Positions 2,685 through 5,878 of a stretch of DNA of 64,000 nucleotides are shown piece by piece. The translations under genes and the position numbers were made by a program. Every line of letters starts with the position of its first letter. Position 1 is the first letter of the stretch. Source of the DNA: Alphaproteobacteria bacterium (lineage in GTDB: Bacteria > Pseudomonadota > Alphaproteobacteria > SMXS01); assembly GCA_028284945.1 (NCBI GenBank), contig JANQQJ010000033.1, positions 1 to 64,000 of the forward strand. Reading direction: 5' to 3'. The notes below the pieces were generated by a model, which was not told the origin of the DNA, made no database searches, and saw only the letters and a list, made by a program, of their open reading frames with translations.

Positions 2685-2722
2685 GCCCTGGGCTGCCACG
2701 TCGTCAGAAAAAGGGGAGACCA

Positions 2723-3304
2723 ATGCAGAAAATGTTGAGTGCATTTGCTGTTCTTCTGATCTTGGGGATCGGAACAGCAGCCCACGCGGACACGCGCGAA
2801 GGCGCGGTGACGCTGAAGGCAACCGCGGCGGCCGCGGACGGAGGTGCCATGGACGAGGCGGGACCGCCCAAGGATACCGCCGGCTTTACTTGCCATGATG
2901 AAGATGGTGACACCTTCTGTTCATGCACCAGTCTCAAAGACTGCAATGCGCTGATTAAATCCGGTAAGTGCACCGGCGACCTGGAAATTCACGAAGAGGA
3001 CCCACCGGACGCGACCTGTGATTCAGATAGCGCGGATCAGCCGGCCAAGCCCGGCGGACTCAAGCTGAAGGCGGCCAGCAGTTCTGAGACGACGGCGCGT
3101 GTCAGCCCGGCATCGGCAACGAATATGACGCTGAAGGCGACCGGCCCCGGTGGTACCGAATTCGATTGTGACTATGACGATGACGGCAACAAGACCGGCT
3201 GCAAGTGCCACAGCACCAAAGACTGCATCAATATGTTCAAGAAAAAAGCATGCGGCGATTGGGACGTTGATGATCAGGGCACCAAGGCAAGCTGCGGGCC
3301 TTAG
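2723..3304 (+). CDS. Secreted protein with two six-cysteine modules, function unknown
   Basis: The 193-residue product starts at the ATG preceded by AAGGGGAG. It has a Sec signal peptide (cleavage near AHA, residue 22), then low-complexity Ala/Asp-rich linkers and two homologous modules. Module 1 uses Cys57, 66, 68, 74, 83 and 99; module 2 uses Cys149, 160, 162, 168, 177 and 191. The shared spacing is C-x8-10-C-x-C-x5-C-x8-C-x13-15-C. Both contain an S-x-KDC core, and TLKAT occurs before each module. Even cysteine numbers in an exported protein suggest disulfides or metal binding. Asp-rich loops could bind cations. I do not recognise the family. Confidence 0.7.
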   Translation: MQKMLSAFAVLLILGIGTAAHADTREGAVTLKATAAAADGGAMDEAGPPKDTAGFTCHDEDGDTFCSCTSLKDCNALIKSGKCTGDLEIHEEDPPDATCDSDSADQPAKPGGLKLKAASSSETTARVSPASATNMTLKATGPGGTEFDCDYDDDGNKTGCKCHSTKDCINMFKKKACGDWDVDDQGTKASCGP

Positions 3305-3440
3305 CGGTGTTGCCATTCAAACACACTTCGGGAATTTCTGGCTTTAGGGCCTGAAATTCCCCGGAGCCAACTTTACTTAATAAGAGTTGCTCCTCTATAT
3401 TTTGACGAGGTGTTGGGAGCACATACCAAATGAGGTGGTC

Positions 3441-3680
3441 ATGAGGGTGGCCATGTCAAACGGGATGGAGACTCCGATGGACGATAATCTCGTCTTAGTG
3501 CTGACAACCTTGCCGAAATACTTGCTCGTGACGGCGATGATTGGTGCGCTGCTTGGGTTTGAGCTCGCGCGCACGAACGGCTTCAGCCGCCTGAAATCTA
3601 CCGTGCGCGGCGGATCGATCGGTGCCGTTATCGGTGGCGTCGTCGTTGGCAGCGTGACGACGGTTGTGAGCTATATTTAG
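3441..3680 (+). CDS. Small two-helix membrane protein, unknown
   Basis: This short product (about 79 residues from the ATG at 3441) has two hydrophobic segments: one around LLVTAMIGALLGFEL and a Gly/Val-rich one near the C-terminus (GAVIGGVVVGSV). The second looks like a glycine-zipper helix of the kind found in small envelope proteins. Other in-frame ATGs occur at 3453, 3465 and 3477. The first two each have a GAGG-like site about 5 bases upstream, so the start is uncertain. The stop lies 8 bases before the putative lipoprotein gene, which suggests co-expression. I do not recognise the family. Confidence 0.55.
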   Translation: MRVAMSNGMETPMDDNLVLVLTTLPKYLLVTAMIGALLGFELARTNGFSRLKSTVRGGSIGAVIGGVVVGSVTTVVSYI

Positions 3681-3687
3681 CCGCCGA

Positions 3688-4206
3688 CTGGCCCGGCACG
3701 GATTTGCTGTCGTTCTGACAGGTATTCTAACCGCGTGTCAGGCCGCACCTGCTTCTGATCCCAGGGTGCGGATCATCAATCCCGTCAATATTGCGATCTA
3801 CCAAAGTTTTGAATTCGCCCAGGCGGCGCCGATGGTGCGCCAGGCCATGGCGTTTCCAGACATGGACGCACGGGCTGTCGATCAAGCGGTCAGGGCAGCC
3901 GTGACGGACGAGCTTTCACGAAAGGGATATGCCCGTGCGCCGGGCGGAGAACTCTCCATCCGGTTCACGGTCGACATGAAGGAACTGGTCGATATCGACC
4001 GGGCCTATGGTCTCAGTGCGCGGGACGCCCGGGTGGAAGAGGGCGAGCTTGTCGCCGTATTCGCGGTCTATTTCAACGAGGCAGCGACCGGCACCAATGT
4101 CTGGCGGGTCGAGACCGAGGGGCCTTGGAATGAAGGCGAGGGCGAGCTGGCAAACGTCAGCCGTTTGGTGCAGGCTGCGCTGCGTCAGGTACCAAGACAC
4201 AAATAA
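3688..4206 (+). CDS. Putative lipoprotein with a non-AUG start
   Basis: The nearest standard start, GTG at 3766, would give a 146-residue protein without a signal. The frame stays open upstream to a stop at 3667-3669, and the extra codons read as a textbook lipoprotein signal: basic residues, then FAVVLTGILTAC (lipobox LTAC, Cys at 3736-3738). No ATG, GTG or TTG exists in that extension. CTG at 3688 is the best candidate start (172 residues), possibly coupled to the previous gene's stop. The mature part resembles small DUF4136-type lipoproteins, with little certainty. A sequencing error that removed an ordinary start is the main alternative. Confidence 0.5.
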   Translation: MARHGFAVVLTGILTACQAAPASDPRVRIINPVNIAIYQSFEFAQAAPMVRQAMAFPDMDARAVDQAVRAAVTDELSRKGYARAPGGELSIRFTVDMKELVDIDRAYGLSARDARVEEGELVAVFAVYFNEAATGTNVWRVETEGPWNEGEGELANVSRLVQAALRQVPRHK

Positions 4207-4240
4207 CGCTGCCGACGGCAGCTAGCCGGAAGAAGCCCCT

Positions 4241-5248
4241 ATGTACGTCACGCGAAACATCGCCATTCGAAACACGTTTTGGGATTCATGGCGTTTCCTG
4301 CTGGCGGTGGTCCTGTGGTCGTCGCTGATTGTCGTTCTGCATGAATGGTTTGGCTTTACGGCCTTGGCCGTTCCGGCCTTGCCTGTTGGAACCATCGGCA
4401 TCGCGGTGTCGCTCTATCTGGGGTTCAAGAGCAAGGCGTCCTATGACCGCTGGTGGGAGGCGCGGAAGATCTGGGGCCAGATCGTCAATGACAGCCGGAC
4501 ATGGGGAAACATGGTTAAGACCTATGCGCCGGATGATGTCGCGAAAGAACTGATCTACCGGCACATGGCCTGGATGAATGCGCTGGCCTTTCAGCTGCGC
4601 AAGACGTCCCGGCTCAAGCCCTCACAGCATCTCCACATGTTCGACTACCGCCTTACCGGGGGCGAAGACAAACACCACGGCGACCCGGAGAGTTACCTGA
4701 AATTTCTCGACGGCCCTGAGCGCGATGAAATGGCTGGCTACCAGAATCCGGCCACGCAGATTGTCATGCGTCAGGGTGACCGGCTGAAAGAGCTGGTGAA
4801 GGATGGCGCGCTGGACACGTTCCGCCATGTCAGCATGACTGAGCGGCTGGCGAGCCTCTATGACAATCAGGGTAAGTGCGAGCGGATCAAGAACACACCC
4901 TTTCCGCGGCAGGTGGCCTATTTCGGCGCTGTCTTTACCTGGATTTTTGTACTGCTGACGCCACTGGCGTTGGTCGATTCCATTGCCGCCGAAATTGAGC
5001 GCTTCAAGCTCACCGGGTCGGCAGAAGTCGAATATCTGCTTATCCTGGTGCCGTTCAGCGCGGTGATCGGCTGGGTCTTCATCATGATGGAGAAGATCAG
5101 CGACTCCCATGAAGACCCGTTCGAAGGCGGCCCCACCGACGTGTCGATCTCGGCACTCTGCCGGGTGATTGAAATTGATCTGCGGGAGGCACTCGGCGAA
5201 ACCGACATCCCGCCCAAACTGGAGCCGGTGAACGGGGTTCTTTATTGA
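4241..5248 (+). CDS. Bestrophin-family anion channel protein
   Basis: The 335-residue membrane protein belongs to the bestrophin/UPF0187 family. Seen: the N-terminal TRNIAIRNTFWDSWR, a first hydrophobic pair at about residues 20-65, the family signature YDRWWEARKIWGQIVNDSR (about 68-86), and a C-terminal membrane region ending in the acidic HEDPFEGGPTDVSI stretch, equivalent to the cytoplasmic calcium-clasp region of eukaryotic bestrophins. Bacterial members form pentameric ion channels, cation-selective in at least one studied case. Length is normal for the family. No partner gene is evident. Confidence 0.87.
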   Translation: MYVTRNIAIRNTFWDSWRFLLAVVLWSSLIVVLHEWFGFTALAVPALPVGTIGIAVSLYLGFKSKASYDRWWEARKIWGQIVNDSRTWGNMVKTYAPDDVAKELIYRHMAWMNALAFQLRKTSRLKPSQHLHMFDYRLTGGEDKHHGDPESYLKFLDGPERDEMAGYQNPATQIVMRQGDRLKELVKDGALDTFRHVSMTERLASLYDNQGKCERIKNTPFPRQVAYFGAVFTWIFVLLTPLALVDSIAAEIERFKLTGSAEVEYLLILVPFSAVIGWVFIMMEKISDSHEDPFEGGPTDVSISALCRVIEIDLREALGETDIPPKLEPVNGVLY

Positions 5249-5277
5249 GCTCCAGGCCTGCCGGAATGCTTGCTTGC

Positions 5278-5874
5278 CTACTTGATCATGCGGAAATGTT
5301 CGCTTGCTAGCCAACTGCGCATAAAGGTCGCATCGCAGATGTGATAGGCCCAAATTCTTGAGTCGACCGTTCCATACGTCACAGCGTGAATCTCACCTTC
5401 ATAATCAGAGAGCCACTCTTCGAGCTCCGGTTCTATGTCCCGCCAATCAGTTTTTCCATGCTCTATGGGTACCAACTCGCCCGGATTAAGCAATCCATCT
5501 AAATCTACTACGCCGTCAAACAGTTCTGCAAAGTAGAGTGCCAGCTCGCCGAGCACTCTATGGTCCTCCTCGTCGTTACACATTGCTGCCAAACCAATTT
5601 CATGTTTTGGCAAGAAGCCAACGTGATGCTCAATCTCCGTCAATTCTTCTTCGCCATACTCGGAGTCTTCGTTGCCGGTTTCCGTATGGGAAAAAAGGAA
5701 CGGTCTGGCATGCTGGTCCGTGGCGACTGTGTCTCCGATAGGAACGGTGGAATTGATCCAGATTTTGTTCTCGTCTTGAACCGAGCTAATAAGATCAAGC
5801 GCGTGTTGGATCTGCTTCAGCTGACGTCCAGTCGGTGCAGCTTGAAGCAAGACCATCGCAGTTGGCCCAGCCAT
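5278..5874 (-). CDS. Uncharacterised acidic protein, lower-GC gene coupled to the VWA gene
   Basis: The 198-residue protein is acidic and soluble with no signal peptide. It opens with MAGPTAMVLLQ, which I associate loosely with DUF6368-type proteins; this is unverified. Its ATG lies 4 bases after the VWA gene stop, so translation is probably coupled. Its base composition is visibly more AT-rich than its neighbours, a sign of recent acquisition. Small acidic orphan proteins of this kind are often immunity proteins, but no toxin partner is seen. The 3' end converges on the bestrophin gene. Confidence 0.65.
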   Translation of the reverse strand: MAGPTAMVLLQAAPTGRQLKQIQHALDLISSVQDENKIWINSTVPIGDTVATDQHARPFLFSHTETGNEDSEYGEEELTEIEHHVGFLPKHEIGLAAMCNDEEDHRVLGELALYFAELFDGVVDLDGLLNPGELVPIEHGKTDWRDIEPELEEWLSDYEGEIHAVTYGTVDSRIWAYHICDATFMRSWLASEHFRMIK

Positions 5875-5878
5875 TGCG

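Follow-up and report, generated by a model that had tools for sequence, protein, structure and literature searches.

Within the 64,000-nucleotide stretch of DNA analysed here (hereafter the window), an open reading frame on the forward strand runs from an ATG at position 2,723 to a stop codon ending at 3,304 and encodes a protein of 193 amino acids; its frame, coordinates and translation were all checked and found correct. The ATG is preceded by a probable ribosome-binding site region (AGAAAAAGGGGAGACCA, 2,706-2,722, forward strand) seen in the sequence. Judged by eye, residues 1-22 (2,723-2,788, forward strand) resemble a signal peptide, MQKMLSAFAVLLILGIGTAAHA|D, with cleavage probably after AHA (AHA|D). 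Such a start agrees with the secretion announced in the original prediction, and on it we regard the protein as probably exported, to the periplasm or the cell exterior. Overall the protein is net acidic (32 D+E vs 18 K+R). Just 3' of the frame lies a 13-nucleotide inverted repeat (3,330-3,361, forward strand; 92 % complementary), a possible transcript end that carries no T run and is missing from the list returned by the terminator scan.

Upstream, nnrU (PF07298) ends 38 bases ahead of the frame on the same strand. On the 3' side follow, in order, a small membrane ORF, a gene for a DUF4136 protein (a marginal match, 32.9 bits vs a cut-off of 32.8), a bestrophin gene, an oppositely oriented gene for a DUF6368 protein, and VWA/CoxE-like and AAA genes.

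Repeated modules and their relatives

All 12 cysteines of the protein are located inside two modules, on the forward strand, and none elsewhere: residues 57, 66, 68, 74, 83 and 99 in module 1 (F55 to C99; 2,885-3,019) and residues 149, 160, 162, 168, 177 and 191 in module 2 (F147 to C191; 3,161-3,295). The gaps between them (8-1-5-8-15 and 10-1-5-8-13) give the pattern C-x8/10-C-x-C-x5-C-x8-C-x15/13-C, exactly the tandem six-Cys spacing that had been predicted, and the S-x-KDC core named along with it was recovered in both modules (TSLKDC and HSTKDC). The linker repeat TLKAT likewise stands ahead of each module as described (residues 30-34, 2,810-2,824, and residues 136-140, 3,128-3,142, forward strand), the DNA of the repeat being identical at 17 of 18 bases (94 %); LKLKAA (3,060-3,077, forward strand) is a partial further copy, with 72 % identity to the reference copy.

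The protein was shuffled 200,000 times from residue 23 on, with spacing scored from C1 to C5 only and a C1-C2 gap of 6-12: at least one module arose by chance in 44 of the 200,000 shuffles and two modules in none. Aligned with each other, modules 1 and 2 are identical at 18 of 47 positions and score 66; shuffles in which the Cys were kept fixed (n = 1,000) scored 21.3 +/- 12.4, and none reached 66. Because no Cys-fixed shuffle matches this score, the modules are alike beyond their Cys, which supports, at the level of sequence, the internal duplication of one module that the original prediction had proposed.

The genome that carries the window holds a single copy of the Cys-module gene (two module matches in one ORF). 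At the family level, 2 of 10 genomes were positive at E up to 0.1, namely this genome and G007, a MAG ('Sphingomonadales bacterium isolate Bin_23_8') whose homologue on JALHLV010000010.1 (L039 5,938-6,411) was also recovered in a contig pattern scan. This homologue shares with the window protein a signal-like start, two modules, 12 Cys, the C-x-C-x5-C-x8-C core and an alanine-rich linker ahead of each module; it differs by its non-acidic loops, its shorter linkers and its other genomic place, and the two proteins are 26-29 % identical. Since a homologue with the identical two-module layout exists, we consider 2,723-3,304 a real gene rather than a chance frame. Module 1 of the window is identical at 18 of 47 positions to G007 module 2, just as it is to its own partner, and the remaining window/G007 pairs reach 13/47, 12/45, 13/48 and 13/45. 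In Cys-fixed comparisons with G007 module 2, none of 1,000 shuffles reached the score of window module 1. These modules show no clear positional pairing, and the duplication may have come before or after the split of the two species.

A profile built from the two window modules and the two G007 modules led to G012 and G245, which belong to a different family of the same class (of 289 genomes, five matched at E up to 0.01, three of them judged true including the genome of the window). Their E-values are weak (2.8e-4 and 1.0e-3 per genome); we find these relatives convincing because each match adjoins a neighbour that the search had left unreported and that has the same pattern, keeps the core spacing exactly and begins with a signal-like stretch. 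Each genome carries an adjacent pair of one-module paralogues, at L046 3,736-4,443 and 4,497-5,183 in G012 and at L047 456-1,031 and 3-446 in G245 (the latter cut by the contig end). The one-module homologues that the original prediction had suggested looking for are thus present, with the Cys spacing kept, in 2 of the 3 genomes of this order. They resemble the window protein in their aromatic-x-C start, the C-x9-12-C-x-C-x5-C-x8-C spacing, C6 and the signal-like start; unlike it, they have one module only, of an eight-Cys type with a further C-x-C 6 to 11 residues past C6, and C-terminal tails, and their genes lie in adjacent pairs. When the window modules were compared with the four eight-Cys modules with Cys fixed, z ranged from 0.2 to 2.3 and 17 to 400 of 1,000 shuffles reached the score; the link to these relatives is one that rests more on spacing and gene layout than on other residues.

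Wider sampling, in genome sets that overlap with one another, showed the module to be rare among the genomes covered. Among 385 genomes of the class, nine matched at E up to 0.05 and only three were true; in the phylum sample, 5 of 398 matched at E up to 0.01, the genome of the window alone being true; and in a sample of relatives of G012, the two matches among 289 genomes (E up to 0.001) were G012 and G245 themselves. One further order gave 0 of 269 genomes at E up to 1e-4 in each of two draws, searched with no positive control; the draws apparently comprised almost identical genomes and amount to about one sample. Protein searches detected no relative of the window protein in plasmids, phages or viral contigs, and no relative of one G012 protein in plasmids. 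Searched directly with the window protein, 15 of 60 genomes matched at E up to 1, including its own genome and two segments in G007; the other matches (E 0.01 to 0.7) were set aside as weak and put through the Cys-pattern scan alone, in which one locus (L018) matched with an Arg-rich frame and was taken as chance. The contig pattern scan yielded 46 pattern stretches and one confirmed relative; its patterns, derived from two sequences, could not be expected to pick up distant relatives. Weak profile matches at 11 loci were rejected after their frames had been read for stops, missing Cys order and missing signal peptide; among them, a frame of 113 amino acids (G110) was discarded despite its C-x-C-x5-C-x8-C, as it has several extra Cys and no signal peptide and ends four residues past C5.

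A variable slot between nnrU and the VWA/CoxE-like gene

In the window, the Cys-module gene and four other genes lie between nnrU and the VWA/CoxE-like gene (2,685-5,878, without strand), the same two neighbours being near-adjacent in G007 and G001. The nnrU-VWA distance is about 40 bases in G007, 20 in G001, 690 in G003 and 3.2 kb in the window, where the compared genes of these three relatives are 48-56 % (nnrU) and 84-85 % (VWA) identical to those of the window; five other genomes of the same family gave no VWA match in the 1.5 kb after nnrU. Because this spacing differs between relatives, the Cys-module gene sits in a variable slot, and since the slot shrinks to 20-40 bases in two of them, the upstream nnrU gives no clue to function. 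NnrU was also considered as an operon partner and rejected, as in G007, G001 and G003 nnrU is followed by VWA without the Cys-module gene. The G007 copy lies on a different contig from nnrU and VWA, beside PAP2 and YjbR genes. In G012, a PEMT/ICMT-type methyltransferase gene (L046 3,221-3,673), which we take to be of the same broad kind as NnrU, faces the Cys-module pair; this parallel is probably a coincidence, no such gene being named beside the G007 copy.

Comparison of the window ORFs with the regions around the G012 and G245 copies revealed nothing in common besides the Cys-module gene. With the region of the G007 copy, two ORFs matched in addition: one at L048 6,103-7,017, 25-27 % identical to three distant window ORFs, and a glutathione S-transferase about 1.3 kb from the Cys-module gene, whose 39.5 %-identical window counterpart is 18 kb away. 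Glutathione S-transferase genes are common, and for this reason we do not read the shared one as linkage. Neither a ligand nor an operon partner nor a conserved neighbour indicates a function. The GC content of the Cys-module gene (0.584) equals that of the window (0.590), and therefore gives no compositional sign of recent foreign origin. In the same slot, the DUF6368 gene (5,278-5,874) has a GC content of 0.503, below that of the window, and the small membrane ORF (3,480-3,680), rich in glycine, has a weak, sub-threshold match to microcin V (E 0.081 and 0.19).

Patchy distribution and a variable slot are usual for competition genes, and the occurrence of the gene (two of the ten genomes of its family, with one-module relatives in two of three genomes from another order) together with its location would suit a small secreted Cys-rich protein of antimicrobial or toxin-like type directed against other cells, as would the microcin V resemblance of the next ORF. 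We hold such a role to be very unlikely: the microcin V match is far under its cut-off (13.9 vs 27 bits) and other glycine-rich families match similarly weakly, neither an immunity gene nor a dedicated exporter was seen among the neighbours scanned, the N terminus resembles an ordinary Sec signal, and the protein is acidic overall.

Comparison with named families and conservation of the cysteines

The window protein matched no family at E up to 1 in Pfam or in NCBIfam. Searched singly, the eight modules of the window protein and its relatives gave best E-values of 2.1 (Pfam), 0.12 (NCBIfam) and 0.11 (PHROGs); three homologues compared with curated families reached at best E 0.025, under the cut-off; and against PDB sequences the best E was 1.2 with the window protein and 3.4 with a four-row profile, an eight-row profile giving none. 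No curated Pfam-A or NCBIfam family exceeded its curated cut-off. The motif, which the original prediction could not assign to a known domain, matched no named family in Pfam, NCBIfam, PHROGs or PDB sequences, and the best reading of these searches is that the module is undescribed in the curated libraries consulted. A literature search of limited scope found no description of it; we do not claim its absence from print.

The window module has its size, export and several disulfide-type Cys in common with small disulfide-rich extracellular modules such as Kazal, WAP, EGF and CS-alpha-beta defensins, and some of these also combine a hairpin with a helix, as predicted here. They nevertheless differ in that none is among the Pfam matches of the window protein, the three homologues or the eight modules. 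Their Cys spacing is, to our knowledge, unlike that of the window module. Tandem inhibitors are generally built from repeated small Cys modules that are exported and carry variable loops. The window protein fits this design and could be read as a secreted protease inhibitor, in which a two-headed scaffold stapled by disulfides would present a variable reactive loop. With no inhibitor family over cut-off, no PDB sequence match and no protease gene named in the subset of neighbours scanned, we judge this improbable.

Across the eight modules, which come from six proteins, C2-x1-C3-x5-C4-x8-C5 is exact in all eight. The spacing is therefore kept in the modules of all relatives, where its loss would have told against the predicted motif. 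The loops C1-C2 (6-12) and C5-C6 (12-18) vary in length, F or Y stands two residues ahead of C1 in 8/8 modules, and D precedes C4, more loosely, in 4/8. Outside the signal-like stretch the six proteins contain 12, 12, 10, 10, 8 and 8 Cys (the last in the protein cut by the contig end), an even number in every case; in one of the G245 proteins there is also a ninth, at residue 15, within that stretch. The genome of the window encodes DsbB (E 1e-35, over cut-off). Even Cys numbers, an exact Cys core and DsbB in the genome favour disulfides, and with even, position-conserved Cys in exported proteins (export judged by eye) and a host disulfide pathway the family has the traits of disulfide-stapled proteins in general. 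We infer from the sequences that the six Cys pair as three disulfides per module.

Asp-rich loops had been taken to suggest metal or cation binding, and a periplasmic cation buffer or sensor that binds metal or calcium through these loops or through Cys was weighed. The C1-C2 loops of the window protein are indeed acidic, with D or E at 4/8 and 4/10 positions, and the second module contains DYDDDG, which is like the start of the EF-hand loop. In the nearest homologue, G007, however, D+E amount to 1/6 and 1/10, and the D-x-D-x-DG string of an EF-hand-type calcium-binding loop occurs in only one of the eight modules; Pfam gave nothing for the window protein at E up to 1. As the Asp-rich loop is not conserved, a metal site as a conserved feature is not supported and was rejected, the acidic loops not being common to the family; exported Cys in a genome with DsbB are also more likely oxidised. 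A metal-binding role for the protein is accordingly unlikely in our view, though the acidic loops of the window copy could bind cations in its own species.

Predicted fold and proposed role

An AlphaFold model of module 1, computed with four aligned modules as rows, reached a pLDDT of 70.6 and predicts a hairpin-helix-strand arrangement (strands 4-9 and 12-17, helix 20-29, strand 35-38). In this model C1 lies in the first strand, C2 and C3 in the second, C4 in the helix and C5 just past it, and C6 falls in an end of low confidence (block mean 54). With both modules, the full-length model is poor (pLDDT 42.4); in each module a helix again follows a hairpin, at low confidence. Fold searches stayed within noise: the best E-values were 1.1 against the PDB (Foldseek) and 0.41 against viral structures, and the best VIA-align Z was 3.2, to PrgH. 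These PDB and VIA-align values are also the best that bear on a likeness to Kazal, WAP, EGF or CS-alpha-beta folds.

Taken as a whole, we see about even chances that the window protein is a rare, exported, Dsb-oxidised and two-headed pair of disulfide-stapled binding modules acting outside the cytoplasm. The protein would be exported beyond the cytoplasm and oxidised by the Dsb system, its six Cys forming three disulfides per module after export (four in the eight-Cys relatives). Each module is predicted to begin with a beta hairpin that has C1 on strand 1 and C2-x-C3 on strand 2, after which come a helix bearing C4 and a short strand, in a model that rests on four rows; the disulfide staples, with the pairing inferred above, would hold the hairpin against the helix. 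The C1-C2 and C5-C6 loops, variable in length and sequence, would then provide the contact surface, and two modules on flexible low-complexity linkers may form a two-headed binder of an extracytoplasmic partner, either a protein or an envelope polymer. Other tandem small-Cys proteins provide the analogy on which this suggested binding role rests.

An envelope stabiliser or stress-response protein that has no specific ligand and serves as structural filler would also be expected to show low-complexity linkers, a weakly conserved sequence and no conserved neighbour. The Cys core, exact across two families, shows on the contrary that the frame has been kept, and we regard the filler role as rather unlikely.

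Extending the reading as a binding module beyond the window, we tentatively put forward, as a possibility below even odds, that the module represents a new family of disulfide-rich domains folded as hairpin-helix-strand, which a few bacterial lineages use singly or in pairs for binding by secreted proteins and encode in an accessory gene. If true, such a family, with its fixed Cys frame and variable loops, would be a bacterial counterpart of animal tandem small-Cys binders and inhibitors. The module, absent from the curated libraries searched, would be entered as a new domain whose disulfide pattern can be tested, and natural one- and two-module and six- and eight-Cys versions are available for comparison. 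Its reach is modest: the module occurs in few of the genomes sampled, and nothing links it to a function.

The G012 module continues into a C-terminal region with a weak resemblance to fibronectin type III, an arrangement shared with other extracellular proteins: of the two tails in the adjacent pair (L046 3,736-5,183), one matched fn3 at E 0.011, under the curated cut-off. A G012 protein also has a weak match (E 0.1) to an FN3-annotated gene of a Planctomyces plasmid.
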